In this document: positions 7,229-64,000 of the stretch, piece by piece
Position numbering within the stretch: the first letter of the stretch is position 1
Layout of the letters: each line of letters opens with the position of its first letter
DNA from: Isoetes taiwanensis
Lineage: Eukaryota; Streptophyta; Lycopodiopsida; Isoetales; Isoetaceae
Assembly (NCBI GenBank): GCA_021234155.1
Contig: JAJEKV010000017.1
Span: 16,474,416 to 16,538,415 of the forward strand
DNA: 64,000 nucleotides
Reading direction: 5' to 3'
Program-made: the position numbers and the translations under genes
Notes under the pieces: model-generated
What the model was told of the DNA's origin: nothing
What the model saw: only the letters and a program-made list of their open reading frames with translations
Database searches by the model: none

Positions 7229-7339
7229 TTGTCTAATTTTTCGAACATGAGGTTACATCTAAACCATCTAATGGTGCAAACAACAACCCTAATGGTGCAA
7301 ACAAACCATCTAACAGTTGCATCTAAACAACATCTAATG

Positions 7340-9760: not shown

Positions 9761-9862
9761 AGCCACACAAGTTCAACTCGGACCTCTGATGGATTTTAGT
9801 AAGACAGCATTGGTGGAGCTCTTGGTTGCAGCAAGGCAGCCTCTAAAAAGGTGTTTAGCCTT

Positions 9863-10472
9863 CATCTTTACTTGTCATTTTTACTTTGAAAACTACCAAA
9901 ATACCACTATGAGTTTATACTAGAAAAAGTGCCCAGTGTGTTGCTGGACTTTTCATCAGGCATAAATTATAAAACTAATAAAGATGGTGAATTTAGAGTG
10001 GGAACATCTAAAAGGCAGTAAATATATGTGTACAAATGTAAAAAACACAAGTTATATTGCACATCTTTGACATTCTTGTGAGTCTATCTATAACCAAGAA
10101 CCTCTTGAGTTATAGAGCTCACATGGTACTCAAAAGGAAAACATTTGATTTTCGACGCATGCTTCAAAGATCCAACTCAAGGAGAACATTTTCACCACAT
10201 CTTAAGATTCAACACATGCAAGTTTTCACCTTGAGTTGGGCATCTTTAAAGATTCACATGCAAGCTTTCTAGATTACAAATGCCAAGGTGGTTAACACCA
10301 CGAATTTCAAAATATCATAATGAGTCATGTATTCATTGTCCCATTGTCTCTCTTAAGCCATGTGATTGCCAACTTCTTTTTATACTTGATCCTTGTTTGG
10401 GCAAAAAAGTCTACATTCATGCTTTAAATAAAAGTTCATAATGAAAAGCCAAGTGACTCACAGGTAGCAATA
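9863..10472. other. intergenic, with a short dispersed repeat
   Basis: No gene. About 9880-9920 resembles the arm sequence of the inverted repeat at 42450-43680 (ACTACCAAAATACC...). The following AGAAAAAGTGCCCAGTGTG...CTGGAC recurs near 47128, marking a small dispersed repeat. Confidence 0.4.
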
Positions 10473-28865: not shown

Positions 28866-29142
28866 CAAAAGTTTTGACTAGAAAAAAGACATTTTGCCAA
28901 CTTGTTGACACATCATCATCCCATACTGCCATGTCATCCTCCATTTGCCAACTCACAATACCAACTTGCCACTTCATCATTTTTGCCCCATTTTGAGTTA
29001 AAAAAGCCAAATGTTCTTTTTGCAAAAAAGATTCTTCTATTTCATAGAGCATCAAAAAAGAGTCCATGTGCAAAAAAGAATTTAAAAAAAAAAAATTCTT
29101 TAGACCTTCATTTTTGAGTTATTGGGAATCGTGCCAAAGTTC

Positions 29143-29173
<31 letters not shown>

Positions 29174-30907: not shown

Positions 30908-31924
30908 ATGCTTTGCCACTATTTTGAGTTGAACATGCCAATTCCTGCTCCCATTTTTGATCCAAGTATGAATGCCAATAACGTTTTGAACACTTTTGAG
31001 GAATACTATCAGGAATATGGACACAAAAAAGCATGTAAGTTTTCTGAATTCAAGAAATGTTTTAAAAATGATGAAGTGAGAGCAAGGTTGGAATATATCA
31101 TGAGTCTAGGAGCTAATTCATGGAATGAAATAGTTAAGAAATTCTTGGCAAGATTTGGTAAGCTGCTTGACCCACAAGATTTGATCTTTGAGTTGCAAAC
31201 CCTTCACATTAAACATGGTGAGAGTGTGCATCAGTATGTTGAAAGATTCAATCTTTATCTTGCCAAATGTCAAATCAATCAAGTAGCTAACCACCCTTTG
31301 CATCTTGTAGCTTCATTCATCAGAGGTTTAAGCAGCAGACCAAGAATACACAGGAAAATGCTCAAAATCCAAAAGCAAGAGGGATTTGACACAATACACA
31401 AAGCTTTTACAAAGGCTACTGAAATTGATGACATGATTTATCTCCCTGATGAAATGCACTCACCTCATGATCCTTTCTTTCCAGATTATGAGCAGGAGTA
31501 CTTGGGATTTGGACCAGTGCCAATCTATGCTGTTCAAAAAGACAAGAAGAAATAAAAAATGGAAGATGCACAAGGTCCTGTAGCTGATGTCAAGGCTGAA
31601 ATAACCAAAGTGTCTGAAGCTTTGGTTGAAGTTACAAAGCAGCTTCAAGAAATGAAAAGTTCTAGACCCGAGAAGAGGATATACCCTCCAGGTGCTCATT
31701 GCTCAAGAAACACTTACTCATCAGACTATTGTTGGTATAGACCTTGCACCAAGTGTGGTAAGAGAGGGCATTTTGGTAAAGAATGCCCTGTTTGTGCTTT
31801 CTACAAAGCAGTAGGCCATTATGAAGATAGGTGCAGTGTTAAAGAATACTTTGCTAGACAAGAAAAGTCTAAAACTAATGAGCCAAGTGCTTCTATTAGA
31901 TTTGTGCAGAAAATTGAAGAATAA
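30908..31924 (+). pseudogene. Ty3/gypsy-like Gag relic, copy 2
   Basis: Better preserved than copy 1. A 215-codon frame (30908-31555) carries the capsid-like helices and a C-terminal stretch ending GPVPIYAVQKDKKK. After one stop, a second frame of 121 codons (31559-31924) holds the CTKCGKRGHFGKEC knuckle and a second Cys/His cluster. The stop between the two may be natural or decay. The region just downstream is shortened relative to copy 1 and contains a MITE. Confidence 0.78.
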
Positions 31925-32006
31925 GAAGAAATCATGGCTGTTCATACAAGAGGGATGAATAACTCAAAAGATAAAGAGCAAGTTCAAGTGAATGAGGAGG
32001 CCAGAG

Positions 32007-32245
32007 CCCGGGGGATTCACACAAAAGACCCGTATAAACATAGTGAGTGTGTGGAAGGGGGTTTTTTCTTGATGTTTTCGTACATATACTAGGGTTTTAA
32101 ATCCCCCTCATATTGACATTCTAGTGTATTTTCTCCACGGAAGGGGTGTTTTTCCAACACTTTTGCGTACGTATATAGGGGTGTTTCTTCTCATCTTAAG
32201 CACGCAGGTGGCATATGCTCATGTGACAAAGGTGAATCCCCCGGG
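32007..32245. mobile_element. 239-bp MITE with 8-bp target duplication
   Basis: Ends are inverted repeats CCCGGGGGATTCAC and GTGAATCCCCCGGG (14 bp). GGCCAGAG is duplicated on both sides (31999-32006 and 32246-32253). An 8-bp duplication points to hAT-type or similar transposase. The insertion is absent from copy 1, so it is younger than the segmental duplication. It has no coding capacity. Confidence 0.92.
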
Positions 32246-32309
32246 GGCCAGAGCAAGGATTTTGTTAAAATTCCAAAATCAGTGTTGATTTGCTGACTTT
32301 ACGGAAGAT

Positions 32310-32989
32310 TGCCCTATCTTATAAAAAAAAGGTTCTGAATCTAACCAAAGAGAATGAATTTGCCCTCACAAATCACATTGAGGAGCATGTCTTGACTCAA
32401 GAAGACTATGATCCAGGAGCTTTCACATGTATAGCCAGAATGGGAAAAAAGATATTAACCAAAGTGCTGCTAGATGGAGGATCACCACTTAATGTGATGC
32501 CTCATCATATCATGAGATTGTGTGTCTAGAAATTGACAAAAAAGCTCCCGTGGTGTTAAAATCATTTTCTAACACTAAAATTAATCCTATGGGAATAGTA
32601 AGCAATGTGCCAATCGATGTAGAAGGGATTGTTGTGGCTGCTAAATTTCTGGTTGTTGTATTTGAAGGAATAGATGAGAAATCTGATATCTATGATCTGC
32701 TCTTGGGAAGAAAATGGTTGTCAACAGTGGATGCAAGACTTGTATGGTCAAGAGGAGAATGTACCATATCAAATGGCAGAAAAAAGTAACACTCTACAAT
32801 AAGGTGGGAGAATTTGAAGCTTTAAATTTCATTGAACAAGATATTCTGGTGCCAAATCCTTGTGGTGAATATGAGCTTACTGCACCTGAGCAAGTACCAG
32901 AGCCAAAAGTTCCTATTGAGGTAAATTTGTCACAAATAACCGAATTCGATAATTACTGCTGTGGAAGCAGCACAGTCACAGCAATTTAA
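32310..32989 (+). pseudogene. retroviral-type aspartic protease relic, copy 2
   Basis: Frames hold LLDGGSPLNVMPHHI and then, after a frame change at 32522, INPMGIVSNVPIDVEG and DLLLGRKWLSTVDARL. This copy keeps the middle of the protease that copy 1 deleted. A second frame change occurs near 32787 in an A run. The region ends with the same CCGSSTVTAI stop as copy 1. Confidence 0.72.
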
Positions 32990-33343
32990 TCCGGCTAGTT
33001 AGCCAAGCAGGGTAATGGGATCTCGATTGGGGCTTTTGTTGAATCTAATGACTGGCAATTGATTGTTTAGAATGGTACAAATAATTGATTTCGATAATTA
33101 TTGCTATAGAGCAGTACAGTCACAGGAATTTGTCCGGCCAGTTAACCAAGCATGGGTACGGGGATTTCGATGGGGAGTAGCTATGTTTCTGAATCCGATC
33201 CAAGAAACTCCAAGAAAGAAGGAAAGGAAGAAAGGTTCGACGGTTTAGGATCCCATGGGCGGGATTTAGTGCTAAAATAAAATTTAAAAATTCAGTTACG
33301 CCCCTTAATTAGCGCTATTATTTAGGGCTAAAAATGGTGTCAT

Positions 33344-33940
33344 TTATGCCACCATAGCATGCGAGGACCCATGTGAATATTGATCTGAAGGTATTTTTTC
33401 AATAGCATGATCATTGAAGATATCTGCATCAGAATACGCACGAACGTTTGATAGAACATCATGATTAATAGACTGTGAAGGAGAATGGATCATAACATTT
33501 TCATTAACAACAATATCTCTATAGCGGCATAACACAACTTTCTCAGAAACCAAATCAAATAGTCAATAGACGGGTGCATTATCACCATAACCTAAAAAGA
33601 TAACCTTTTGAGCAATTGGCTGTAACTTAGTCTGTTTCTCCTTTGGAATATTAGCATAGGCTTGAGATCCAAATACTTTAAAACGTTTACTTGTAGGCTT
33701 TTGGCCATGCCATACCTCAAATGGTGTAATCAATATTGGACTTCAATTAAATGTACTTGTTGCTTCAACCCAGAACTTGATATTCAATCCAGAATGATGT
33801 GCATGCTTCAAATAGTATTTAAAACAGTCATGTTTTTATGTTTAACAATTCCATTACATTGTGTTGTATGAGGAACTGTAGACTCTCGCAAAATACCAAC
33901 ATTGGCACAAAAAGAATCAAATATATCATTTTTTTTTGAA
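33344..33940 (-). pseudogene. Ty1/copia integrase C-terminal relic, copy 2
   Basis: Same minus-strand relic as 5385-5990, with equivalent stops. Its upstream part is separated by the LINE fragment inserted at 33930-34608. Confidence 0.68.
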
Positions 33941-34608
33941 GAACGTGTTTTACTTCATATTATACACTCAAAATATTACAAAGTACTTCCAGAAGTAAGA
34001 AATGTCCGTGAAGCATCAATCACTTTTAGATGATCACTCCATATTGGAATTTTAATACGATCAGGCCAATTGGAGATCTGAAAGCAATTATACAACTTCT
34101 TACGAATTTCTTGAAGCACCACCTGAGAAGAAATACGCTTATCATAAAAGACCTTTCTTCGCCTTCGCTTCCATACACTCCATATTAGCCAAGACTTTGC
34201 CATGTGAAATGCAATCCTTTTAGAAGCAGTCCACTGATTTGGATAAATACCCAAAAGAAAGTGCTGACTATCCAAAGATACTCCAAAAAGAGAATGCAGC
34301 CAGGACCTAAGACTACTCAGCTCTGCACACAAATATAAACAGTGCTCCAATGTTTCAATGCACCGCTCACACATTGGGCAAAGTGGGCTTACTCCCGGCT
34401 TAAAGCGATGAACCATCTCATTAACTCTCAAAGAGCGATGAATCACCTGCCAAAGTAGAACATTTACCTTTGGAGGAGTATATTTAGACCAAACAAGGTT
34501 CCAGATGGATTGCCATTGAGAAGGCAAAGTCTGTAAGTGCCATTTTCGAGAAGGTGATAAAGTATTTGAGGATGTAAGCAATCTGTAGCATGAACTGACT
34601 AGCTTCTT
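33930..34608 (-). mobile_element. 5'-truncated poly-A LINE fragment with zf-RVT domain
   Basis: The 680 bp have no counterpart in copy 1, where the join reads through AATATATCATTTTTGAATTC. The minus-strand frame 34581-33976 (201 codons) reads NLVWSKYTPPKVNVLLWQ, then CPMCERCIETLEHCLYLC and WLIWSVWKRRR. This is the zinc-binding domain at the end of plant LINE ORF2. An A tract (T run at 33930-33938 on plus) marks its 3' end. The frame is open, so the insertion is fairly young. Its poly-A tail sets it apart from the (TTCTA)n LINE. Confidence 0.88.
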
Positions 34609-36035
34609 GAATTCACACCATTGTCACTGCAAATACTTTATAAAGGCATCTCCATTTGCAATTCTACCATGGCCCTTCATTTGCAAAACCTGGAGAAAGT
34701 TTCAGATTTCTTTAAATATATATATTATACTAGAGGTTATTATATGCTTATAGTTCTTAGTTTGATAAAAGAGATTTTAATTCTATATATTCATATTTTT
34801 GTACACAAAATCTACACTTTTTAGTATATGTAGTTTGAATGAAATCCAACAATTATTGTACTAAGAAGATATCACAACATAACAAAAGGGAAAAAGAGAT
34901 CGACATTATTGCATAGTGGCATATCAAATTCAATGTAATGCTATTGTTATTGATAGGAGCAGCATTGATTAAATATAAGGCAAATGCGGCCACAAGATCC
35001 GCACGGGGGGTCGCTCTGTCTGGTGGTCCAGGATAAAGACTATCTCGACCCAACTTTCGGGTCTTTTACGGATGTTGAACCAGTAGAGAACAACATGCAC
35101 TTACCAAGGCATAGAGCAGATCGGTCGACACTAGTTTTTGCAAGCACATTTCACAATCTTCTCTTGCATCTTATATGTTTGCTTAGAAGGATATTTGCAT
35201 AAAATCTTTAAAAGCTCTATTTTATGTTATGTTTATGATAATATCCAATAATAAATCCCAACAATAAGTTTTCATATGATTTGATATAAATGCTAGGACA
35301 AAAGTAGGTGCATTTGGTAATATGCCCCTATTCTAGAATTAACCTATAAAACATGGTCATGCTTGGTAAAGTGTTTCGTGCTTGGCTCCATTCATTTCTC
35401 TTAGTAAACTGTGGAACAAAAGCTCCAGAAGGAAATACGAGGGACTGTCACACTTCAAGCTTGATCGTGATTGTGGTTCCAAGGGAACAAATTTGTGGAA
35501 CTAATGAATAAGTTATGTGTTAAAAGTTCTGTTTAGATTAAGCCATGAAGGGAATTTTAATTTCATTTCTCATGATTTAATCTAATGTTCTAAAAGCATC
35601 TTACAACTGAGATATTTTGGTGAACAAAATCAGCATAGAAGATGTTATCAGGTGAGGCGTAAACAACAAAGACAATTAATGTTGCAGATAACATGCACAT
35701 GATAAGATGCTCATTAGAAATCTGCCTCTGCAAATTTGAAACAGAGGTTGGGTCTTGTGAAATGCTTATCCATCGTTATCCATTAGTGATCGAGCAGTTA
35801 CATTTCATTATATGGCATAAGGTTCTTCTTATACCATTGGTTCAATTATTTTAATTAGCTACCAGAAGCTTATTTGTCTAATTTTTCGAACACGAGGTTA
35901 CATCTAAACCATCTAATGGTGCAAACAACAACCCTAATGGTGCAAACAAACCATCTAACAGTTGCATCTAAACAACACCTAATGGTGCAAGCAGTGGTGT
36001 AGAAATGGAAATTATCCCCTATAGAGAGCTAATAG
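34609..36035. other. non-coding LTR-like stretch, copy 2
   Basis: Collinear with 5970-7390 of copy 1. No gene seen. Confidence 0.4.
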
Positions 36036-36588
36036 CATTAGAGTTTTTTTGAGGTCAAATAAGGGCCTTGTAAGAGTATATTGGGGGGGCTGCCACGTAG
36101 GATCCCGAACCTACCTTCCCCCCCTCCATACCTAACTTTCACTCTCCCCTAACCTAACTTCCCCCCCTCCGAACCTAACCTCGTACCTAACTTTGCAATC
36201 ATTATTTCCTAACGACCACAAAATTTAATGATTACATCTAAGATTTTCCTTTTCCCACCATCGAGCTTCAGCCATCGAGCTTCAGCGCCATCGAGCTTGC
36301 CATTGCGCCATCGAGCGCCAACGACCTTGCCATCGCGCCCAAGCATTGTTTGAATTCGAATTATGGCGGATTCTTGCCAGCAAATTTCGCTCTGTTTGTT
36401 GGCAAGAATCTTCCTAATTCTAAGCTCCGCTCCGGTTCTCGGTCTTTTCCAACGTCAATGGCAAAGGTATTTGGTTTCCAAGTTGTCATTGCATTCCTTT
36501 GAGTGTTCTTGGTTCTAATACTTGTGTTTCAGGATCAAACTAATTCCGAGGGTCAATTTAGAGTGCAATTGCCAAAAGGATGCCTGCC

Positions 36589-37322
36589 TTACAGGAATAA
36601 GTTCACTTGGAAGCAACCAATAGATAAAGATGCATTGCGAGCTTTTGGAGCTATGAATATAGACCTCTGGCTAAAGGCCAACTTCTCAGAGACCTCCTCT
36701 TCAAATACCTCCTCATTCTCCTCGTTTTCCAGTAGGAGTTTCTTTTTTGCAGGATCTATTTGCTCCTCTACTGGTGAGGCAGGACATTCTATTTGAGCGA
36801 CCTCCACACTTGAAGAACCGGCATCTTGGTTTGACTTATTGTAAATCATGTATGTGTTGAACATAATATCTACATTGCCTTTTTTCCTGCACAGTTTTGC
36901 AGGTAGTCTCCTCAAAAACCTCCTAATTCGGTCTTGATCAGCCTTTAGAAATATCTTAATTAAAGCTTGCATGCTCAGTAAAGGCAAATCAGTCACATAA
37001 CATGGTTTCAGGTCAGATCCAGCTCTAGCCATGAAGCTATGAAGAATGCACCCATATGCAACCTGTTACACTCTACCATAACGTCTACTGTCAGGCAAAA
37101 ATTATTGTATACAGTAGTTGCATCAACTAGCTCCTCTATCTCCTCCTCAAACTCTTTTGGATGCTTCTGACGAAAATTCCATTCTTTCTCTACTATATTA
37201 TCATACCATGTGCTAAACAACTCCCATGCCTTATCTGATTTACTTTTTACCATTCTCGTTGAGCAACACCTTGATTTGTGATAGTTTGAAGGTGAGTGCC
37301 TTAGTAGCAACTTGATATGCAA
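36589..37322 (-). CDS. unrecognised ORFs inside the TIR element
   Basis: Two overlapping minus frames: 37322-37008 (WELFSTWYDNIVEKEW...) and 37032-36589 (ALIKIFLKADQDRIRRFL...), ending with an acidic ENEENEEVFEEE tail. The change of frame at the overlap suggests an intron or a decay event. I do not recognise the family. They could be part of the element's own multi-exon gene or a captured host fragment. Confidence 0.35.
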
Positions 37323-37719
37323 GAGTGACTAACTGCGAAGTAGCTACGGTCTTGAAAATAACGTTCCATATTTTATGTTATACACAATTTCAAGCACCGT
37401 GGCTACGGTCTTAAAAATTTACTTCCATATTTTATGTTATACACATTTATGCACCGTGGCTACAGTGCAAAAACAACACTTTCTTATTTTATAGCTGCCA
37501 TACAAGAAGAGGTTCAATTGAAGGGAGGAAGTTAATGAGGATGCTTTCAGTAATTTAGAGCAATGAACATTGAGATTTAGGCAATGACAACTTTTTTGTT
37601 TCATTAAATTTTGAGTAGTGTTTTGTGAGTTCAAAAGTAGTCTCTCGTTAGTTATTGTCAAATTGACTATGAAAAGTGGGGCACAAAGTGGTTCTGATTG
37701 TGAAATGCATGTATCCGAT

Positions 37720-37806
37720 TAGGGTTGTGGACATGGCAAATTCAAGACCGTGTAATACGGTCTATAAAGAAAGAAAGAAAGAAAGAAAGAAAGAACGGAA
37801 AAAAAA

Positions 37807-37843
<37 letters not shown>

Positions 37844-38345
37844 TAGTTACAGTGCGAAATGCATGTATCCGTCGGGCTGTGGACATGGCAAGTCGCCAAG
37901 ATCGTAACTCACGCCCTAAAAAAAAAAAGGAAAAAAAAAAAAAAAAATTAGGGCGTGGTTACGGGCGAAATGCATGTATCCGTCGGGCCGTGGACATGGC
38001 AAATTCAAGATCCTTGTAACCACGACCTTTTTTTTTTTAGGGCGTGGATTTGATCTGAAAATGCATGTATCCGTCGGGCCGTGGATATGGCAAATTCGCC
38101 AAGATGTAACCTCCTTTTTTTTTTTTTAGGGCGTGGTTCTGAAAATGAAATGCATGTATCCTTCGGGCTGTGGACATGGCAAATTCGCACTGTAGCTATG
38201 CCCCTAAAAAAAAGGTACGAAAAAAAAGGGCACAGTGGTTACAATGCGAAATGCATGTATTCATTGGGCTGTGGACATGGCAACCGTAGCCACGCCCTAA
38301 AAAGAAAGAAATAAAGTGTTGCATAATAGCCACAGTACGAAATGC
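37720..38345. repeat. tandem array of GAAATGCATGTATCC units
   Basis: About seven imperfect units of 80-100 bp, each with GAAATGCATGTATCC, GGGC(T/C)GTGGACATGGCAA and an A or T run. A (GAAA)n at about 37768-37795 and (CA)n at 37810-37840 lie inside. Confidence 0.85.
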
Positions 38346-38856
38346 ATATGGCAAATGCGCACTGTAACCACGCTCTTGAGATTGTTAATGAAATACAGAT
38401 TTGAATCTACAACCTGTTCATTAGAAACCTAGAGTCTCAGGCCTCAACCCTAGTGGTTTTCCATGCTGGCATCGGGGTTGGCCCCTTAAGTGATCCCATC
38501 AAACCTCTAATGAATTTCGCATCGTAGCTACGGTGCGAAAACAACACTTCCATATTTTATGTTATACATAATTTCGCACCGTGCCTATGGTGGGAAAACA
38601 ACACTTCCTTATTTTATGATATTCATATCTTCGCATCGTAGCTACTTTAATTTTTTATGTTACACTGAAAGCAAACCTTTCCAATCAATATACAATAGAT
38701 CTCCAATTAATCGTCACTTATATTTATATTACATAGATTCATATACAGATGCAATATCGGAACCGAACCATGTCTTGACTTATCCTGCATTCAGTAGATT
38801 CAGCTCCATCATGAAGTCGAGCACTCCAACCTTCAAGAAATAGACTATCTAAAAAA

Positions 38857-39560
38857 CTATCCACCGACTGTCGGAATTGTAAACATCTTGAATAAGGCAA
38901 TGAACAAATCAATTCTTAAATTTGTCTTCACATGCCCGCAGAAACCTCCCTTCTCCTTCAATGCCGTAAACATTTCCTGTGACAACTTACTCCGTGCTAG
39001 TAAGACAGAAGTGGCATTCAGAGGCCTGCAGTATAGCTCGGACAAGCTGGGCAATGGAAGCTCAATAAGCTTGGATCTTCGTAGAGAGTATTCATACCTC
39101 CAGAACCATATACCCCTTTTCTGTGAGCTGCACTGGTATGCTACCTTCGAACAACAAGGAGCCCATATCTTGGTGAAAGCAATGGAATACACTACTGTGA
39201 AGAGATTGTATTCTACACATCAGCTATACACAAACCTGAGAGAATAGGAATGAACTGGATAAGTAACTGAACTAATTTAGATATGGATTGCATAGAAGTA
39301 CATACTTACAATTTGCTTCTAACCGTGGGAAAGTTCTTCGCTTGCTTATTTTTTCTTTTGCCATATTTGTTGGAGTGTATACATGACTCACTTGTACAAA
39401 TATCGCTTTGCCTGATCGAAAACCGACCACCAAAGCCTTCCAATGTTGCATCTTTTGACTCGCTATTCTCTTCGCATTCCAGGTTGGAGTGTAACAAAGC
39501 TCCCGGTCGACACCACGAAGCTTTCAAAGTCATTTCGATTGTGATAGAGCTTATAGCCAT
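38857..39560 (-). CDS. possible exons of an unrecognised gene in the TIR element
   Basis: Minus frame 39560-39306 ends at a strong donor (GTAAGTAT at about 39308). A second frame 39192-38857 lies beyond a pyrimidine-rich CTCTCAG acceptor near 39242. The arrangement looks like a spliced gene, but no domain is recognisable. Together with 37322-36589 it may be one gene interrupted by the tandem array. Confidence 0.3.
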
Positions 39561-39983
39561 CTAAAGTCACAGAATTCAAATTAGAATGTGGAGCAGAATC
39601 AAAATACTAGGAAAGGCTCGGTGATTTTACCTTGACCGAAGCTTTTTTGTGGTCGAAACTCACTTTGGCGCAGGTCGAAGCTATTCCCGAGCAAATCGAA
39701 GTTCCCTTGGCGCGGGCAATCGATCTTCGCGCAAACTTTGTTGAAGAAAATACCTGAGCGGGAATTGAGGGCGGGAGCTAACGGTCATAATTGCTACGTG
39801 TGTAATCTGACACCCGAAGCTAGAGGCACGGATATTACCGAAGCTACATGCAGTTGACACCTGGAATGGCGAAACCAAGGCTCGGTAAAAAAACTCTGTA
39901 CAAGCTCGGCTCTCCATTGGCCGCGAGCTTTTTGACGTGGCATCGAGTAAGGGCCCTTAATTGACCTCAAAAAAACTCTAATG

Positions 39984-40640
39984 GTTGCCTGCTTTATTTA
40001 GCCAACAATACTAGGCCTGACATTGCATATATTGTAAATTTGTTGAGCAGACATTCTAACTGTCCCACCAAAAAAACATTGGGTACGAGCAAAGCATGTA
40101 CTCAAATATCTCAAAGGAACATCCATGCATGGTATAACATTTACTTCAAATGACCTAAGATTGATTGGTTTCAGTGATGCAGATTACAGAGGAGATTTGA
40201 GTACAAGGAAATCAGCCTCTGGATATGTAATATCTCTTAGGAGGAGCTATTGCATGGAGAAGCAAAAAGCAAAAAGCAAAAAGCTATTGCAATGTCATCA
40301 GTAGAAGAGTGTGCAGGAAGGGACTAGTTTAGCTAGAAGATTACTACAGGAAGTTCTTTGATAGTAAAGGGACTAGTTTAGCTAGAAGATTACTTGATGA
40401 ACTGGAATGCAAACAGGGTGAACCAGCATGTGCTGCATAGCTATAGTAACTACAACATGAGAGGACTAAGCACATAGAATTGAACACACTTCACTAGAAA
40501 TTTGGCAAGAAAAGCGGAAAAGGCTCTATGCAGATGATATACGATGAAGTATATCATTGAACACACTTCACTAGAAATTTGGCAAGAAAAGAGGAAAACG
40601 CTCTAGGCAGATGATATACGATGAAGTATATCAGTACAAA
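39984..40640 (+). pseudogene. Ty1/copia RT-end and RNase H relic, copy 2
   Basis: Continuation of the relic split by the TIR element: ANNTRPDI, GFSDADYRGDLSTRKSASGY and AIAMSS are readable after frame changes. It keeps GDLSTRK, which copy 1 disrupted. It also carries the 80-bp tandem duplication (about 40486-40632). Confidence 0.78.
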
Positions 40641-40936
40641 TATGCAAGATGCAAGGCGTATTTAGAACTTCAAGGTTATCTCTGTGAATTCAGAGATAAA
40701 CTTGTGATGTTATAAATATATGTGATGAAGGAGAAGTATTAGGTGTTGAACATCTATTGATTACTTATGTTCATTAGATTCCAGCAAATATGCCTTTAAG
40801 ATTCAACAGATGTGCGTATCCATAGTCTTCTCTCAATTCGCTCTGGCAATACCATTTGTAATCAGCTCTTGTCTAGTTTTTTCTAGCAACTTGCAGATTG
40901 CTAGAAAATACACAACCGTGTGCGCAGAGAAAGTTG

Positions 40937-42316
40937 CTAATGATGGAGATCATGTAGAAGTTTGACAAATGATTCCAATGAAGAACTGGTAGAAGCTGCT
41001 GCATGTCTGGCTTGTACACTGAGCAAACTAGCTCTCTGTCTGATGCTTAGACTAGCAGGATCATCACTCATTATTAAAGCCACCTTTTCAAACTCTTGAT
41101 GGTCTGCAATACCATTTGAAGCTTTTTTAATCTCCAAACCAACTCCTAGACCCTCTTCCACCATTTTGCAGTCCAGCATTTGGTCAAACAAGTAGGGCCC
41201 ATGGCTCAAGAATGCTCCTATTGCACTATGCTGCAAGATTTGAAGCTGAGGAGCCCAGCCACATACTATTCTTCCATATCCTTGGCTCCTTTCTAAAAAT
41301 TCCTGTGACAACTTTTCCACTACGTAATGTTATGCTCCATTCTCCATACCCATAAAAATGGTTGCTTCAAAGCTTCTAACCCTTTTGCAATCTCTACTGC
41401 CTGTTCATCAGGTATTGCAACCACACTTCCAAACGAAATGTACCAAACAGAGGCCTTGCTTTGTGAATTTAACCACTCTATGTATTCATTTTCATTTTCT
41501 GTTCTAAAATTTGGGATCATTGGCCCTACCATATAAACAGGAACCGGGTTAAGGTTACCTGAATTAATGGCTTGCAGTCCACCCGTTTCCGCTTCTTCAA
41601 AGCTGTTGATTAACATAGCCGAAGCTCTTCGAGTTCTCTCTGCAATTAAGACTAACATATCAACCAAAGGGGATCCCTCTCTAAGGGCAGTGCTCAATGC
41701 TCATATGTCTTAATCTCAAATCTTGAAGGGTTAATCCTGGCAGATGCACAAGATCATCCATGCTTTCCTGCCGGATTGGGATCTTACCTTTCTTTATCAG
41801 ATTTGGGACCTGAAGGGTAGATGCAAGAAATGTGGCTGACGAAGTGTAAAACAAGATCCAGGGCATCCCAACCCTAATGGCTATATCTTCAATCCAAGAC
41901 ATTACATGATCTGTTATTATACAGCAAGGCGCAAACAAGTCGCGATTTGTGGATAAATCACGTATGAAGTCTTCAATCTGGGCACTGAGTTGAGGGGATT
42001 GACCCAACATCCATGTAATGCGATTGTCAACTTTGTTGGAGCGTGCTTCCGAGTAGAAAGAGGAATCAAGTTCGTTTGATGGCTCTAGATAATGAGTATT
42101 AATGAACGGATTTGCCATGAAGGAAGATCGAGCATTAGAGTGGGACAAATCTTCTGATTTCTCTTTGAGAATTATGAGCGTTGTGTAAATGCCAAGGGAG
42201 GCAAATCTTTGGGCGAGCATAGTGGCTGGAATGAAATGGCCCTGTGCAGGAAAGGGGACAAGAAGAATGTGGAGAGGGGCTCCATTCAAGGGCTTAGCTT
42301 CAAGCGCCATAGCCAT
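40937..42316 (-). pseudogene. broken duplicate of the UDP-glycosyltransferase
   Basis: Very close to 8333-9760 but disabled at three points. Seven extra bases (AATGCTC) near 41693 shift the frame after HMS. A change near 41322 gives a stop after EHNIT. An in-frame loss of 54 bp near 41198 removes 18 residues of the PSPG box, from the W-N-S of HGGWNS to just before PYLFDQ. The lost residues contact UDP-sugar, so catalysis would fail even without the frameshifts. A 3-bp loss near 41083 is also present. Confidence 0.95.
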
Positions 42317-42449
42317 AGCCACACAAGTTCAACTCGGACCTCTGATGGATTTTAGTAAGACAGCATTGGTGGAGCTCTTGATTGCAGCAAGGCAGCCTCT
42401 TAAAAAGGTGTTTAGCCTATCTTTTTGTCCTTTTTAGTTTGGAAAATAC

Positions 42450-43690
42450 CCCTTTAGCCTATTTTTTGTCCTTTTTAGTTTGGAAAATACCCCTATGAAT
42501 TACCAATATGCCCTTTATGCGTTTTAAAATTACCAAAATGTCCTTGGCTCAAATAAATACACAAATAAACATACGAACAAATTACTAATTTTCCCCTACA
42601 CACCAAACTTATTTACCAAAATCCCCCTACGCACTGGGTAAAAGCATGTTAGGGTGTCCCTTAAAAAGTATTATTTAGTGACCAAAAAAGTACCTAAAAA
42701 GATACCCAGGACTGGGTACTGGGTACCTGTGTAATATCTCAATAAAAGGTACATTCTAGAACTTTTATATATATTTTGGTCTCCAGTAGCATTATCTTTA
42801 TCTTAACTTTGAATATTAATGCGTCCTTGACTTTTATTTTGGACTTTTGTACTAGTTTTAATGAAAATAAAAATGAGAAAGTACCTAGTTCTGAAGTACC
42901 TAGTGTATGTACTTTTGCAGGTTCCAAAAGTGGTACACCCTAACATGCTTTTACCCACTAAACTTAATTACGAAAATGCCATTATATACTAATTTTGATC
43001 AATCTATACCAAACTAATCAACCAAAATGCCATACACACCAAACTTAAGCACCAAAATACCCCCTGCATACTAAACTTAATTAACAAGATGCCCTTACAT
43101 ACTTATCCTACTCAATCTATAATAAATGCTTCAAGAATAAAAGTTTAAATTCAACAAAGAGATTAGAGAAGTCACAATCATCACTGAATTGGAGCCCTAC
43201 AACTGCATGCATCAGGTCTATTCCATTACACATTCCATTCAAATATTCCTCTTCTTTACATCTTCTTCTCCCGTATGCATGCATTTAAATTTTGGACGTC
43301 CAAGAGATCTACGTATGGCTAGTGATAACATGCCTCAAATAGCATCATCGTGCGCTAAAACAATAAGAAACGATGGCTCCTTGTAAGCATCGCAACAAGA
43401 CTCTGTAGGGGTATTTTGGTAATTAAGATTGATGTATAGGGCATTTTGGTAATTAAATATAGTGTTGATTGATCCAAATTGGTATGTAATGCCATTTTGG
43501 TAATTAAGTTTGGTGTGTAGGGGTATTTTGGTAATTAAGTTTGATATGTAGGGACAAATTGGTAATTTATTTATATATTTATTTGAGTCAGGGGCATTTT
43601 CATAATTTTGAAACTCATAAGGGCATTTTGGTAATTATATAAACTCATAGGGGCATTTTGGTAGTTTCCCTTTTAGTTTTTTCTGTCTTG
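42450..43690. repeat. long imperfect inverted repeat built on CCAAAATGCCC units
   Basis: The left side (42450-42635 and 42957-43120) is rich in ACCAAAATGCCCCTACACACC units. The right side (43400-43690) carries the inverse GGTAATTAAGTTTGGTGTGTAGGGG units, and several longer stretches pair (for example GACTCAAATAAATA...). A 321-bp MITE sits in the left arm. Looks like a foldback or MITE with tandem subterminal repeats; a related arm fragment lies at about 9880-9920. No gene. Confidence 0.75.
42636..42956. mobile_element. 321-bp MITE with 22-bp terminal inverted repeats
   Basis: Starts GGGTAAAAGCATGTTAGGGT and ends with its perfect inverse (22 bp match). ACT is duplicated on both sides (42633-42635 and 42957-42959). 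The interior has GTACCTA / GGGTACTGGGTACC repeats. A 3-bp duplication fits CACTA- or PIF-type transposases, though the ends match neither consensus. Confidence 0.88.
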
Positions 43691-56589: not shown

Positions 56590-57425
56590 TGCAACGACAT
56601 TTGCCACTTTTACTACGACATCCTTAAACTGCAGAGGATTCCATGCATCTGGAGAATGGTTCATAGTTGTTGCAGCTTTATTGTCGCGCTCATCAATTGA
56701 ATATACAAATATGTAAGCTCCTCCCAATGTTGTTGTTGGTCACAGACTTTATTTACTTTGGAATATTCATGTGGGTCGAGAAAAGCTTCAAGTGCTCTAT
56801 CAACTTCTCTAGATTATTTTTCATAGAGTGCCCAGCTCTGTAAGGACACCCATATGTGCACATTCCAGTCCTAGGCCACTTTTCATCAAGGTAACAAGTT
56901 CATCAAATCTGCCCTTATTTTGGTAATATTAGCTTGCCAAGCACATTGACAAGATGACCCCGCCCCAGTTAGAGAGATATGGGAAGATGATTTTGACAGC
57001 CTCATATATAACTTCTCATCAAACAGTTTATCTCCATAGCTTTGGAGATTTGTAGCACTAGGATATGAAATAACTCTTCAACTACTGCCAAAATGACTTC
57101 GTTAAACTGTGTAGCATCATTGGCTCGAATAAATGAGTCAAGTCAATAGCATCACTCACAAACCTTTCTCTCAGTTGAGCCTTAGCTACTGGGCTCCAAA
57201 CCTTATCTTCTTCAACAGGCAAAGCAAATTCCACTACACGCTCTATGCGTCAGATGTTATCAAGGAGGACATTTACAGCCTGTTTGCACTTGAATATGGC
57301 AAATGCTTCTTTGTAAAGTTGAGCCCCAACGGCAGTATCTCCAACAGCAGAGTATCTCCAACAGCAGAGCAACAAGACCATCAGAGTTGTCCAATGTATT
57401 TCTATAATCCATAACTCTGGACTTA
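56590..57425 (-). pseudogene. clathrin heavy chain fragment, inverted continuation
   Basis: Minus-strand pieces in order are [91 protein letters not shown], then [20 protein letters not shown]. These are consecutive clathrin heavy-chain segments following the part at 49563-50260, with an internal deletion after the SNW segment and many frame changes. The orientation is opposite to the first fragment, so a single pseudogene was probably broken by an inversion, or two fragments inserted separately. No function is expected. Confidence 0.9.
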
Positions 57426-57436
57426 TCTGCCTTGAT

Positions 57437-57652
57437 TAGGATAAACGACAGATATTGCAATATTTGGTTAAGTGGAAACACTTACCTACGGAGGATGCTA
57501 CCTGGGTCTTTAAACAAGACCTTGACAAGGCTTACCCTGACTTTATGCAACAATGTCAGGGGCGGACCATCCACGATGCTATCGACTCCGACTCCACTGA
57601 TATGTCATTGTCCAGTAGATCCGATAGGGATCATGCAGGGAGGTTGGGGTAG
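57437..57652 (+). pseudogene. Ty3/gypsy chromovirus integrase chromodomain end
   Basis: The frame ending at 57652 begins RQILQYLVKWKHLPTEDATW, a clear chromodomain (Y.VKWKG.P.E.ATWE type), followed by a short acidic C-terminus. Chromodomains at the end of chromovirus integrase direct insertion to modified chromatin. Everything upstream of the chromodomain is missing: minus-strand clathrin sequence abuts at 57425. The 3' untranslated region, polypurine tract and LTR follow in the expected order. Confidence 0.85.
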
Positions 57653-58153
57653 ATGCATCCTAGGATGGGGGAAATTGCCTTTAAGCATCTTAGGTCGCAA
57701 CCGTCTCCGGCTAAAATAGGAACAATGCCATTCCTTATGCCGCGACGACTTGCAAGCCCTAGGCATTATAAGATCCCCTTCATATCAGTCTTTTTATTAG
57801 TTTTATTAAGGTGGTGGTCCCTTCAACCACAACTTTCTATAATTAATTTGACTACTCACGTATTGATATCTGCAGGTGTGTAGTGTGCACAACAGCATCT
57901 GCAGTTTGGAAGACTCACTTTCAGGAGTCATGTTATGTTTTCTTAAGTTATCTGTATCTTATGGTCCACTAAGGACCTTGTTGTCAAGCATAATCAGTGT
58001 GTTAAGTCATGGTGTGAAAGGACTTCGGTCCATAGCTTTGATCGTTTATAATCCTTTTGTAATCTCCTATATTTTACAATAAAGTATCCACTCTCTTTTT
58101 CTTTTACTAATGATTCTTTCATCCATCCTTAATGCTGAGGACAGTATTATTCC

Positions 58154-58161
58154 AAGGGGGG
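58154..58161 (+). other. polypurine tract of the chromovirus relic
   Basis: AAGGGGGG, five bases before the LTR start at 58167. It primes plus-strand DNA synthesis in LTR elements. Confidence 0.65.
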
Positions 58162-58166
58162 TAGAA

Positions 58167-59129
58167 TATGACGTTCCATGTAAGTATACGGTATACATAT
58201 ATCGTACCTGACACATCACCAAGATATTGGGAACCATTGGGGATTAACTTAGGAGGGATTATTGACATTAAACTAACCTAAGTAGCCAAGTAGGCTGGTT
58301 AGAATGTGCCACTTGGCCTCAGTCGATTGGCCAAGGGCAGGTTGCCAACTTTGGGTGGCAAATTGAGTCCCCCATCCTAATTCTATCCAAATTCGAGTTT
58401 GGGAAGAGCAGAGGAAGGAGGAAGCTGTTACAACCTAACACCTGACCAGTTCTATGGACGTTCTTCGAGACAACAGGTCTAGCCAGGACACGGGTCAGTT
58501 TCTAGGTAGTTGTGTGCTTCTAACCCTTTTTTGAGGTAGATGGATGATTAGATTCTATGTTATGATCTATTTATGATGATTATAGATGTTGTATCAGATT
58601 CTGTTCTCTCTTTCTGTTCCTCCTGTGATGTATGGATTTAAGGGGAGTAGAGGCCTGAAAGCTATTTAGATTTAGTGATGTTCCTAGCTAGAACCTTTTA
58701 AATCCCAGTAAATGCGGCTTGTGCACAAGAGGCCATCTGGCTGGGGATGCTATGATGTGATTCAGCACCAGATAACGAGTATGATGGTGAATCGGGGGTG
58801 GGGTCTTGCCTAGCGCGGCTACAAGACTCCTACAGTGTGCTAGGCTTATAGTCGATCACGAAGAGGGCCGGGTATGGGTCTGATACTTCCTGGGTCGCAG
58901 GTGTCGAGCCAATATGATTGGGCGCCCTGGGCTCGAACGGGCAGGTGAGCCGGCCTTTAGATTTAGGGGAGTAAGTCGGGTACGAATGCGGGGGTCACTG
59001 AGGGGGCATGCGTTCTCTAGCACACCCAGGGATCCGTCATACTCGGGGAGGGGACGCCTCTCCGACTTGCCTCATCGGACCGGGGAGATGTAACCCGGAG
59101 TAGTTCCATAGGGTGATTCCATGGGATTG
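58167..59129 (+). mobile_element. LTR A, 3' LTR of the chromovirus relic, truncated
   Basis: Starts TATGACGTTCC with TATACGGTATAC nearby. Its interior resembles LTR B at matching places (for example AGTAGAGGCCT...AAAGC at 58648 versus 59769, and CGGGGAGATGTAACCC versus CGGGGAGATGCAACCC at 60131). The last ~500 bp expected from LTR B are missing; LTR B begins exactly where it stops. Confidence 0.7.
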
Positions 59130-60648
59130 TGTGACATTCCAGTACGATATACGGTCCCAAGACATATACCGTACTGCACCGTCACGCGTACACGCCATCC
59201 CAACTGACGTGTACGCCGACGTGTAGCCAAGCAAGTAGCGCCCTAGGGGGCAACTTGCAAGGGTGCGCACATTTACTAATGTGTGCACTTTAACCCACTA
59301 AATATTAAGTGGGCATACCAAGGGTCGTGGAAACCCTAACCCTAACTGATAGCCTATGTATGCAACCAAACCCTAACTTTCCCTTTTCATCCACAGCCCT
59401 TCCGAGCTCCGTTTCGCGCGCTCCAAGAGTCAATCTCGACTCCCGAGACCTGCCTGAGCAGTCTAGCTTGTCAGCTTCCCTTTCCGACCGCATCTCCAAG
59501 CAAGACAGCGACATGGAAGCATTCCGAGCAGGAGGAGCAAGCCAGGGATCAGGTATTTTGTCAATTCAATAGCCTAATCTGCCTCCCAGACGTAGAGTTA
59601 GCAGGTTTAGCCTATTGAATTGCCTATAGCAGCCACATAGACCTCTAGATAGCGAGCCATAACTAAAGAACCTAACTTCTGTGATGTAGATTAGATATTA
59701 TTCTTTAGTTCTTCGATGATATGGATGTATTGATGATCTATGTGGACTCATTGTATTGGGAAGGGGGTAGAGGCCTAAAAGCCTAGTAATTGATGCTCCT
59801 AGATAGTCCTCTTTAGTGCACTACTAAATTTCGGCCTGTGTACAAGAGCCACACCTGGTTGTGGGTGAAAAGGCCAGACTGGCTCATAAGGGGGTTCATG
59901 TCCTGACTCATGAGAATGATCCCTCTGGTGTGTAAAGCCTACCAGGGATCCCTGTGGACTAGGTCTAATGGCTTGTCACTGCGTGTGGGCGAGGCATGGG
60001 CTCGACACCCGTGGAGTGATCGCCATTTGTCTCCATTGGGTTCAAGCCGGATAAGGGCAAAGGGCCCTCTAGTCACCTTGAGTCGGCATGTAGATCTCGG
60101 AGGGAGTGATCCCTACACCGCCCCATCGGGCGGGGAGATGCAACCCAGGAATAGCCCCTTTGGCTATGCATCCGGCGGGCTACAGTCAGGTCCCAACACT
60201 TTTTAGCCTACTCTGCAAAGTGTGCACAGGAGGGGTGGATGGAGCGGACTACCCAATTGCCATGTTCCTTTGCCAGCCAACTCCACTGTTATTGCACTCT
60301 GTCTGCTTGATCTCTGGAGACCCAAGCTTGTCAGTCCACCCTTGTGTCTGAGCCTGGGTAGAACTCCCTTATGTGATGTACTGATCTTTGTCTATGCAGA
60401 TATGTGGTGAGCCATCCCTCGTGGTGGTCATATGATATTGATGTATGTGCTACTGACGTGTATATTACGCTTCCGCAGCTAGGTAGGCATTGAGGGAGAC
60501 AGGGTAAATGACCTCTTCATTCTTCCCACTGGAACATTCAAGGTTGCAGTGATACGTGGAGGGCCCTATATTAGCATGGAGCTGGTATGGGGGATGAACT
60601 CCTGTTGGTATACGGTGAGTGTACCGTATATGAGTAGGGGACGTCACA
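59130..60648 (+). mobile_element. LTR B, 5' LTR of the histone-H3-bearing element
   Basis: Runs from TGTGACATTCC to GGACGTCACA, which are inverted at the tips as LTRs are, with a primer binding site one base later. It contains telo-boxes at 59331-59346 and 59368-59377. Size is 1519 bp. The matching 3' LTR would lie beyond the window. Confidence 0.75.
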
Positions 60649-60649
60649 G

Positions 60650-60661
60650 TGGTATCAGAAC
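60650..60661 (+). other. primer binding site TGGTATCAGAAC
   Basis: Twelve bases complementary to a Met-tRNA-type 3' end, one base off the common TGGTATCAGAGC. It defines the start of the internal region of the element with LTR B. Confidence 0.8.
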
Positions 60662-60850
60662 AATGTTCTTGGAGACCAAGAGCAAAGCACTGGCCATGCT
60701 CCCAGTAGCACTAACTTGATAGAAACCTCAGACCTCGAAAAAGTCGAAATTTTTTTCATTTTTTTTGTAGTATATGCAAAGCTAGTAACAGTTAGGAGAA
60801 TTGGAACATAAGAAGACTAAAAAGTTGAGCTAAATTTTTCTAAGGTAAGG

Positions 60851-60923
60851 AATGTCTCACACCATGCGCCAGAGCACAAACCTAAAATTTAGGTCAAGCC
60901 CTGGGCGTATCATGTGAGACATT
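60851..60923. repeat. 73-bp hairpin repeat, copy 1
   Basis: AATGTCTCACACCATGCGCC pairs with GGCGTATCATGTGAGACATT. The loop carries ACCTAAAATTTAGGT, itself nearly palindromic. Confidence 0.88.
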
Positions 60924-61063
60924 AGGCCCTAATCACCTTAATACTTGATGAATTTTAATAAGGTAACATGCTAGATCGAGTTTTAAGGTAAGAATTAGCT
61001 AGATTTGTATATTACACCCCTAGAAATATGCCTAGAAATCATATAATTTAGTCTAAAATCCAC

Positions 61064-61135
61064 AATGTCTCACACCATGCACCAGAGCCTTGATCTAAAT
61101 ATTAGCTCGGGGCCCCAGCGCATAATGTGAGACAT
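61064..61135. repeat. 73-bp hairpin repeat, copy 2
   Basis: Diverged copy: AATGTCTCACACCATGCACC pairs with GCGCATAATGTGAGACAT. Located about 210 bp before the H3-like ATG. Confidence 0.85.
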
Positions 61136-61344
61136 GTGCTTAGAAAGTTCTGAAATAAGTATATGTTTCAAGTCAATAGGTGCCCTGGCACATTAAAAAG
61201 AGCAACTTAAAATTTGACCTAAAATTGCCCAAGCTATAAATAGACCTAGACCCCCCTCATTTGTACGTTCCCTCTTTAGAAAATTGCACCCGCCTTTTGA
61301 GGCGATTTTTGGGCGCCCGACCTCCGATCGACGAGTCGTAAGAC

Positions 61345-62637
61345 ATGGCGAGAACCAAACAAACTGCTCGGGTTCCTCGAGGAGACGGAACAGCCAGCGC
61401 CCAGCTACAGGAGATGCTTCGGGAGCATCTTCTCGCCAGAGGAGGCCAACCTTCATCGAGTGACGGGACAGAGTCAGAGGAGCACCAAGCAGAAGGATCC
61501 CAGCAGGGAGCACAAGATGACCTGGCCAACATCATCGACCAGGAGATAGACCAGCAGGTAGACGAGGAGGAGGTGCACTCGGATGCCCCAACCGAAGTGC
61601 TGAGGAAGAAGGAGACGACCAAATCCAGAGAGTCCTCGAGCAGATGGAGAAGGAGAGGCGAGAAAGGGTGGAGCAGGAGCGGAAGGCGAAGGTACATGAA
61701 GAGCAGAGGGAGCCAAACCCCGAGCCGACCGAGGAGGAGCAGCTCGAGGCATGGATCCGGATGCACGAGGTAAAGGAGTGGCGCCCACAGAAGAAAAGGG
61801 CCGAGAAGAAGAGAAAGAGGGAGGAAAACGAAGCAAAGGAGGCCGAATTGAAGAAGAAGCTCAAGGGAAAAGGCGTCAAGGGAAAAGGCGTCGAGCAGCC
61901 AAGAGAAGATTAAAGAAGACTCCTTTGACAAAGGTTGTCATTCAAGAGCGGCCAGCAGACAGCCCCCATCATCCTCGGATGACTCGGATGATGAGGATTA
62001 CAACCCTCATCAGCAAGATGGAAGCTTTCCAAGCCCCCGGGCGAAGAGCACACAGACCCCGAGCCACAAGTGCAGGCACCCTCGCCTTATCCAACTTGGG
62101 GGACAGAGAAGGACTCCAAGAAGCCGCCGCGACCCGCCAGGGAGTCCTACGTGATAGACCCTATCAGGGTCTACCAGAAGAAGTTCAGGGCATACCAGGC
62201 GTACATGAAGAAGTGGGAGGCTTACAACTCCTACTATCAGGCGAACAAGGTCACGTACGTCGCAGGTGGACGGCCGTCGAAGAAGCAGACTCTGAAGCCG
62301 CCCCCCTGAGAAGCCAGTTCCTCCGAAGAAGCCACCAGCGAGGAAAGCCAAGCCGAACCTAGCAAGAGCCATCAGAGAGATCCGACACTTCCAGCAGAGT
62401 TTCGGTTTTCTAATCCCTCGTGCTCCTTTTGCCAGGCTCGTAAAGGAAGTCGTGCAAGAATATGACACCAGCATGAGGGTAACTGGCGAGATGCTGCTAG
62501 CCCTACAAGAAGCAGCGGAGCACAAACTCGTGCAGCATTTTGAAGGCGCAACGGCGTGCACGGTACACGCAAAAAAGGTAACCTTAATGAAGAAAGATAT
62601 GCACTTAGCCAGTCATATCAAAGGAGAGCCTTACTAA
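61345..62637 (+). CDS. histone H3-like protein in the gag position of an LTR element
   Basis: The ATG at 61345 lies in a good plant context (AGACATGGCG), 684 bp after the PBS. The first nine residues are MARTKQTAR, identical to histone H3. Then come Q/E-rich text, a long charged helix (EKERRERVEQERK), a basic KKRAEKKRKRE cluster, an acidic SDDSDDEDYNP stretch and a Y-rich YQKKFRAYQAYMKKWEAY segment. The last 90 codons (62365-62637) are an H3 fold. They include REIRHFQQS (alpha N), PFARLVKEVVQEY (alpha 1), ALQEAAE and CTVHAKKVTLM (alpha 2 and loop 2), and KDMHLASHIKGE (alpha 3), about half identical to plant H3. Loop 1 has normal length, unlike CenH3. Frame changes near 61595, 61850, 62030 and in a C run at 62300 mean decay or sequence error. 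It may be Gag fused to, or replaced by, a captured H3. Confidence 0.8.
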
Positions 62638-62774
62638 AATTGTAAATCAAAAATTTTGTGAATACAAAGTGTTTTTGAGTAGATTATGTGCATAAATGTA
62701 CTTAACTAAGTTGAATTAGCAAGTAATAGCTTTTGTTTCAGTCGAATTGGACATATTTAGGTCAATTAGTGAGG

Positions 62775-62845
62775 AATGTCTCACACCGTGCGCTAGAAGC
62801 CAAACCTAAAATTTAGGTCGAGCCCTGGGCGCATGATATGAGACC
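62775..62845. repeat. 73-bp hairpin repeat, copy 3
   Basis: AATGTCTCACACCGTGCGCT pairs with GGGCGCATGATATGAGACCTT; the ACCTAAAATTTAGGT loop is kept. Lies 138 bp after the H3-like stop codon. Confidence 0.86.
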
Positions 62846-62976
62846 TTCACATCAAAACTAGACCAAAACACCTCCAAATTGACCAAGTAAGGGGTCAATC
62901 TTGCCTAACTCGATGAGACTAGCATGATTTGACCCCTAGTTACCCAGATTCGACAAGTATTGACCAAGATAGGCCA

Positions 62977-63022
62977 AATGTCTCACACCATGCGCCAGAA
63001 GCCAAACCTAAAATTTAGGTCG
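62977..63022. repeat. 73-bp hairpin repeat, copy 4, left half only
   Basis: Identical to copies 1 and 3 through ACCTAAAATTTAGGTCG, then replaced by tRNA-like sequence. Confidence 0.8.
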
Positions 63023-63054
63023 TAGAAAAGGCTTTTAAAATTTTTATGTTGTGT

Positions 63055-63115
63055 GGGGGATTCAAACCCTGGCCATTGACCCCCCAGCCCCCCATTCTAA
63101 CCACTAGACCAAGCA
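63055..63115 (-). other. tRNA-like / SINE head
   Basis: The minus strand reads TTGGTCTAGTGGTTAGAAT (A-box type) and, 30 bases later, AGGGTTTGAATCCCC (B-box type). Spacing and words match a tRNA gene, but the acceptor stem is not evident, so a tRNA-derived SINE or tRNA relic is more likely than a working tRNA. Confidence 0.6.
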
Positions 63116-63200
63116 TTAACTCTATGAACAACTTATGTTTCAAATATACTTAAGGGTAATGTTCCCATTAAGATAAAATAGACTATAACATTCTAGGTAG

Positions 63201-63268
63201 TTCAAGAAAGTTCTAGAATGTTCTGGAAGGCTCTAGAAAGTTCTAGAATCTTCTAGAAAGTTCTAGAA
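63201..63268. promoter_or_regulatory. phased heat-shock-element array
   Basis: Seven consecutive 10-bp units of TTCnnGAAnn with no spacing error (the fourth starts CTC). This is the ideal binding pattern for heat-shock factor trimers, and 14 inverted pentamers in a row is exceptional. It may be a simple 10-bp satellite by origin. Confidence 0.7.
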
Positions 63269-63910
63269 CATAAGAGAATCTAGGGGGGATCTAAGAAAAT
63301 TCTTCCAAAAAGTTCCAAATTGTTCTAATAAGTTTTAGAATGTTCTAGAATGTAGGGGAATCTACGGGAATGTAAGGAAATCTAGGGAAATACTTCCAGA
63401 AAGTTCTAGAATATATTGAAAGTCTTAGAATGTTCCAGAAAGTCTTAGAATGTTCTAAAAAGTTCTAGAATGTAAAGGAATCCAGAAGAATCTAATAGAA
63501 TCTAAGAAAATCTTATAAAATGTAAGAGAATCTAGGAAAATATTTAAAAGCCTAAGGGAATCTCTTAAAATCTGGGGGATCTAAGGGAATCTTCATAAAA
63601 TCTAAGGGAATCTAAAAAAATGTTGATGAAACCTTAGAGTATCTAGGGGAATCTTTATAGAATCTCTTTGAATCTCATATAATGTAAGGGAACCTAGGGC
63701 AATCTCATAAAGTCTAAAGGGATCTAAGGGAATCTAAGGGGATCTAGGGGGATCTTCATAGAATCTTGGAGAATCTACGGAAATCTAATGGAATCTAGAG
63801 GGAATCTTATAAAATTTAGAGGAATCTACACGAAACCTCCAAGAGAAACTTGGTAGAATCTTAGAGAATCTATGAATTTAGAGTATTCTTAAAAGATTCT
63901 TTTAGAATGT
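63269..63910. repeat. degenerate GGGAATCTA / TTCTAGAA repeats
   Basis: About 640 bp of loosely repeated 8-12-bp words (AGTTCTAGAATG, GGGAATCTAAGG). The left third still has many TTCnnGAA pairs; the right part drifts to GGGAATCT(A)n. Confidence 0.85.
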
Positions 63911-64000
63911 AGGGCACGACAAGAACTTGCAGCATAGGAACATGCTAAAACTCGGACATGCACCGTAGGACGCATTAAATTTCTTGTATAAATATATTTT

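Follow-up and report, generated by a model that had tools for sequence, protein, structure and literature searches.

A long terminal repeat (LTR) retrotransposon of Isoetes taiwanensis carries, as an extra first gene ahead of gag, a gene for a histone H3-like protein, and this gene is under purifying selection across the copies of the element. The copy described here lies in a 64,000-nt stretch of contig JAJEKV010000017.1 (assembly GCA_021234155.1, positions 16,474,416 to 16,538,415 of the forward strand; hereafter the window), which holds its 5′ half. It is a chromodomain Ty3/Gypsy element, one decayed copy of a high-copy family, and the selection on its H3-like gene suggests a mobile element that makes, or mimics, a component of its host's chromatin. 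We tentatively propose, with a probability of roughly 0.42, that the gene encodes an H3 variant that would act in the nucleus as an H3 owned by the element itself.

Together with the 30 kb of contig examined directly past its end, the window contains an element of ~13.2 kb (59130-72291; positions are numbered on from the window), bounded on both outer sides by the 5-bp target-site duplication GATTG (5′ unit at 59125-59129, + strand; its partner lies 3′ of the 3′ LTR, outside the window). The 5′ LTR (TGTGAC...GTCACA, 59130-60648, +) is matched by a 3′ LTR at 70275-72291, which aligns to it in two pieces of 96.4% and 99.4% identity with an insert between them; the divergence of the pair is 0.048 by the Kimura two-parameter distance on a MAFFT alignment, or 3.6% and 0.6% when the two BLAST pieces are taken separately. 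One base after the 5′ LTR is the primer-binding site TGGTATCAGAAC (60650-60661, +), of the initiator tRNA-Met type, and the start codon of the H3-like gene follows at 61345. This succession of LTR, primer-binding site and a frame with the exact H3 tail is the one described in the original prediction, which was limited to 59130-62637; that span does hold the LTR to the H3-like gene, but the element goes on to the 3′ LTR.

Downstream of the H3-like gene, the order is gag with a CCHC knuckle, protease, reverse transcriptase (RT), RNase H, integrase and chromodomain, gag to chromodomain occupying 64291-69456. The earlier idea that H3 takes the place of Gag therefore had to be given up, as gag is present further along, while pol and a 3′ LTR, for which a check had been suggested, were indeed found in the continuation of the contig. 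The gag-to-integrase part of this copy has frame breaks, and its integrase-core fragment (28.7 bits) falls under the Pfam cut-off of 32.6; the chromodomain at the integrase C terminus scores 39.0 bits (PF00385, cut-off 25.1). The element thus shows the features of a chromovirus, namely two LTRs, a target-site duplication, a primer-binding site, the gag-protease-RT-RNase H-integrase order and a C-terminal chromodomain. The plant chromoviruses treated in the compared sections of PMC3350952 have the same components, from LTR to chromodomain, in this usual order; unlike them, the window element has, on its 5′ side, an additional gene encoding an H3 variant.

The H3-like gene (61345-62637, +) comprises tail, charged linker, H3 fold and stop. 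Its start codon opens MARTKQTARVPRGDG, with the H3 N-terminal tail MARTKQTAR (61345-61371, +) followed by V instead of K at H3 position 9. The H3 fold that had been predicted at the end of the frame (62362-62619, +) is borne out by both profile and solved-structure matches: frame 62296-62637 matches Pfam family PF00125 with an E-value of 4.6e-24 (85.5 bits, cut-off 26.4), the best solved match is the H3.3 chain 7ux9_E (1.7e-22), and all solved relatives listed are H3 proteins. The long charged linker is also present, with ~330 codons between the end of the tail and the fold match, but not as part of a single frame; the reading frame shifts four times (frames 1/0/1/0/1), showing that the window copy is decayed. 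Several relatives have one open frame. In nine aligned relatives (457 alignment columns), M1, A2, R3, T4, K5, Q6, T7 and R9 are invariant; the tail gives way to a variable stretch and a charged linker, after which the PPPYPTW...KKQTLKPP block, itself conserved, precedes the fold. The protein therefore has the H3 fold and the N-terminal ARTKQTAR, but not the contiguous ~136 residues with the RPGT segment of H3, since the open frames measure 402-429 aa, a long linker intervenes and that segment is replaced.

Of 27 sequences surveyed (L007 being among them only on the wrong strand), 19 have a tail-like start, which is the exact MARTKQTAR in 14; at H3 position 9, V occurs in 10 of the 19, K in 8 and P in 1. 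Outside these 19, the ATG is lost in one fetched copy (E3) and another (E8) reads MARIKQTARL. In the fold, tabulated for 26 copies up to residue 133, H113 and D123 are kept in 26 of 26, C110, R116, L126, R49 and R69 in 25, and R83 in 24, residues that we take to make the H4, H3 and DNA contacts. No outside protein was found to cover the linker (50 matches, coverage at most 29%, from the 7993 scored candidates that share most words with it), and a viral-contig collection yielded no relatives.

We then considered the family as a whole in the genome (1,658,258,908 bases, 1110 contigs). The fold query gave 9059 first-look candidates, of which the best 150 were scored; a frame of at least 400 aa is listed for 21 of these 150, and in 17 of the 21 no stop interrupts the match. 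Many other copies are broken, like that of the window. The tie between the H3 frame and these LTRs, which was central to the original prediction, recurs elsewhere. Of the 40 LTR places scored from 10948 candidates, six, counting that of the window, are placed 1596-1648 bp 5′ of a listed H3 match on the same strand, and one more is ~8 kb from such a match. The rest could not be paired with any of the 150 H3 matches listed, which make up only a small fraction of the candidates. When ten copies (E1-E10) were compared over 20 kb each, seven showed an LTR end ~1.6 kb upstream of the fold; the LTR is 3.5 kb 5′ of the fold in E1, and the main LTR match is 3′ of the fold in E8 and E9, inverted in E9. 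Clean LTR pairs are present in the window copy and E7; in E4, internal sequence comes after a second LTR. Gag-like sequence comes after H3 in the same orientation in the window copy, E4, E5, E7 and partly E8, is inverted in E9, and was not found within the 20-kb stretches of E1, E2, E3, E6 and E10. Between H3 and gag, a second open reading frame (ORF), which matches no Pfam or NCBIfam family at cut-off, is whole or partial in eight of the ten copies; it is missing in E1, E3 and the window copy. At the corresponding place, the window has a stretch not common to the compared copies (63023-63973, +), after which the internal part aligns again with the others (63974-64000, +) and leads to gag, which starts outside the window.

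To quantify selection, ratios of nonsynonymous to synonymous divergence (dN/dS) were obtained from Nei-Gojobori counts over pairs that are not independent. The fold, in 325 pairs from 26 of the 27 copies (L007 left out, stops skipped in 5 of the 26 rows), has a mean dN of 0.092, a mean dS of 1.28 and a median dN/dS of 0.066 (interquartile range 0.050-0.093). Among 16 long-frame copies, counting only pairs with dS <1, the median is 0.078 for residues 1-9 (nine codons, 29 pairs), 0.57 for residues 10-36 (108 pairs), 0.22 for the linker (31 pairs), 0.17 for the pre-fold part (59 pairs) and 0.081 for the fold (28 pairs); residues 1-9 are conserved above most of the linker. For comparison, dN/dS is 0.03-0.13 in seven gag pairs and 0.46 in one near-identical pair, two being not computable, and 0.02-0.24 in 12 pol pairs. 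As the values for the fold are near those of gag and pol, the H3-like protein is held about as strictly as both. Since other copies also tie the H3 frame to these LTRs, and pol and a 3′ LTR lie downstream, the data support the proposal that an H3-type gene was taken up, and has been kept, by an LTR element.

A second lineage of elements, family V, came to light with a canonical H3 query, for which the best 150 of 9031 candidates were scored. Fifteen of these are near-identical to H3 (97-99%) and presumably are host genes; the other 135 have 72-87% identity and frames of up to 567 aa. Three long-frame examples of family V measure 410-421 aa, start with MANTKS or MAPTKS and end in the H3 fold; the family also includes five further places, in three of which stops occur upstream of the fold. 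In one copy (L050, L046 and L049 together, G000:C1018:19361480-19372060), a single LTR-type end with a primer-binding site, seen without an LTR pair, is followed by the H3 gene, whose fold is near-canonical, then by unassigned ORFs, gag, protease and integrase, RT being missing. Since family V also has its H3 gene ahead of gag-pol, two diverged lineages keep this gene at the same place. Identity between family V and the window family is 51-55% in gag pieces, 51% in protease and 71-77% in integrase pieces. A second ORF lies between H3 and gag in both lineages (L021:6091-7505 and L049:235-1410; 31%, 3.5e-05), neither version matching a Pfam family above cut-off. The gene order and this weak match point to the two families being related elements. 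A grouping of their folds as one clade was disfavoured (p-AU 0.030, with groups named after the trees had been seen). The family V fold is itself strongly constrained, one comparison giving 0 protein changes against 5 silent ones and two others 2 against 42-43 (ratio 0.008). It has L90, and its relative L056 has THAIL, residues diagnostic of H3.3, so that this fold looks H3.3-like. Separately, window positions 57440-59129, immediately 5′ of the window element, contain the 3′ end of a different chromodomain element (PF00385, 1.3e-08); over ~500 bp, LTR-like sequence in it shares 71% identity with the LTR side of family V.

Based on these data, the proposed H3 owned by the element would pair with host H4 through its conserved H3 surface and offer the very tip of the H3 tail, the end with K4, to the readers and writers of the host, its own linker replacing K14-K36 and, in about half of the copies seen, K9. 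Deposited at the chromatin of element copies, or competing for it, such a protein might favour their expression or weaken K9-type silencing. The earlier suggestion that it enters or imitates nucleosomes is accordingly kept here as plausible. Several observations weigh against our proposal. The fold is unlike H3 at R63 (P in 26 of 26), at residues 84-89, at R128 (S in 26 of 26) and in the segment before residue 46, making ordinary deposition doubtful, and the loss of K9 is not general, since 8 of the 19 tails have it. Moreover, the copies used for dN/dS came from the best-scoring matches, most of them picked for long frames, and synonymous change between them approaches saturation. The tail window is also equalled in conservation by 29 of the 320 nine-codon windows within residues 10-337. 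A more elaborate version, which we regard as quite unlikely, makes the protein a nucleosome subunit supplied by the element, that is a K4-end variant without most silencing sites, which would be deposited with H4 on new element DNA and let the copies resist silencing. In its closed-loop form, the integrase chromodomain would recognise the variant chromatin and guide new copies there, and the two lineages would be two versions of the same strategy.

The main rival to an H3 owned by the element is that the protein never enters a nucleosome and works as a decoy, its ARTKQTAR held out on a long arm and occupying H3-tail readers or writers or histone chaperones, like viral histone mimics. The conservation of residues 1-9 far above residues 10-36, the replacement of the chaperone-side fold residues 84-89 and the long linker all speak for such a role, which we nevertheless hold to be rather unlikely: the fold is kept as strictly as the tail, and the near-canonical, very strongly constrained fold of family V stands behind a start of MANTKS or similar, without ARTKQTAR. 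We give still less credit to a role in packaging, in which the H3-like protein would condense element RNA or cDNA in particles or coat the cDNA as it travels to the nucleus. A basic charged linker joined to a DNA-binding fold, encoded by the first gene of the genomic RNA, would suit this task, but the presence of a normal gag with a CCHC knuckle weakens the case, which the original prediction had raised, and packaging does not require an exact H3 tail end.

Equally improbable, in our estimate, is a descent of the window family's fold from the centromeric variant CENH3, with the fold directing the element or its chromatin to centromeres. In the fold trees, family V groups with canonical H3 (96/93), leaving the window family on the plant CENH3 side, where another tree also places it (85/74), and a grouping of the window family with H3 is disfavoured (p-AU 0.034, again with groups named after the trees had been seen). 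Words such as REIRHFQ, LIP and VTLMKKD are likewise shared (P0031). In these trees, however, the window family sits on a long branch among few references, none of them a lycophyte CENH3, so that H3 and CENH3 ancestry are both possible. Loop 1 has the length of that of H3, without a gap, and not the longer loop of CENH3, which in Arabidopsis has two residues more; moreover, the tail reads MARTKQTAR, not MARTKH. A search of the genome for the host CENH3 singled out none, the five rows read out of 150 being all family V or its kin. Finally, that the gene is a passenger, a transduced host gene of no use to the element, is highly improbable despite the broken state of the window copy and many others, given the purifying selection between copies in the face of heavy silent divergence and the two lineages with an H3 gene at the same place. 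Chance or a lone pseudogene was rejected outright, by the E-values, the genome copies and the selection. The few copies, missing pol and lack of selection that would mark a transduced host gene or a non-autonomous element are likewise not what is seen.

A literature search, with preprints and many subscription papers outside its reach, returned no histone encoded by a retroelement, and the word histone is absent from the main text of two Isoetes genome papers (PMC10541799, PMC8566536). Comparable are the additional ORFs of plant LTR retrotransposons, among them an orchid Gypsy element with an RNA-demethylase domain, which are likewise extra conserved genes kept over several rounds of transposition; unlike that of the H3-like gene, their usual position is between pol and the 3′ LTR, or they have other domains, and the sections compared mention no histone gene (PMC7264820, PMC9289625). 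Large DNA viruses are also mobile agents with histone genes, including some H3s with extended or divergent tails, but their carriers are not retroelements, and the main text of the review in question has no match for retrovir or retrotranspos (PMC9145170). The same text gives cenH3 tails of 170 and >520 residues. CENH3/CENP-A and other long-tail H3 variants thus also join an H3 fold to a long N-terminal extension; they are host genes, whereas the window family has the exact ARTKQTAR start and an H3-length loop 1, and is element-borne and high-copy. Extended H3s in the protein database (P0002-P0009, P0023, P0029, P0051, P0080) have an H3 tail start, a long linker and an H3 fold and form multi-member clusters, but no similarity of their linkers to that of the window family was seen (coverage at most 29%). 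Their linkers run to 150-600 aa, several sharing a motif among themselves; P0023 has 77 members and P0080 121, and in P0046 the fold is followed by a stretch that, by eye, reads like an H4 fold.

If this is confirmed, a retrotransposon would carry and maintain its own core histone, a class reported in the portions of text compared only from cells and DNA viruses, and it would become testable whether mobile elements fight silencing by altering the nucleosome itself. The two lineages, with their differently diverged H3 folds, are a natural experiment on the parts of H3 that a parasite needs. Mobile elements may, in addition, push up the number of histone genes counted in such genomes.

Around the H3-like gene, the window element has four stem-loop repeats of ~75 nt, two before it and two after, with similar sites in most other copies; none were seen in E7 and E8. 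Six stretches were folded. In the leader, repeat 1 (60850-60926, +) has a fold z-score of −7.4 and repeat 2 (61063-61139, +) of −5.0; after the gene, repeat 3 (62774-62849, +) has −5.7, and repeat 4 (62976-63052, +), whose 3′ arm is lost in the window copy, folds no better than shuffles (0.24). The L011 stretch was placed beside its repeat and shows no fold (z-score 0.50). Covariation is weak, with a double change in 1 of 16 pairs (21 sequences) and an unfavourable covariation term of +0.26, and Rfam has no match within 57000-64000. The leader of the window copy also contains 14 short upstream ATG frames, none of which reaches the H3 ATG.

Elsewhere in the window, 1639-9897 and 28867-42450 form a segmental duplication with 90-96% identity in pieces, which includes an intact UDP-glycosyltransferase frame (8333-9772, −) and a shorter copy of it (41681-42328, −). 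A 340-aa frame at 11336-12358 (−) weakly resembles tyrosine recombinases (PF00589, 21.9 bits against a cut-off of 27.1) and possibly belongs to a Crypton-like or related element. Lastly, a 2.85-kb direct repeat with 99% identity (20149-22996 and 24437-27286) is perhaps a recent element or LTR-type pair.

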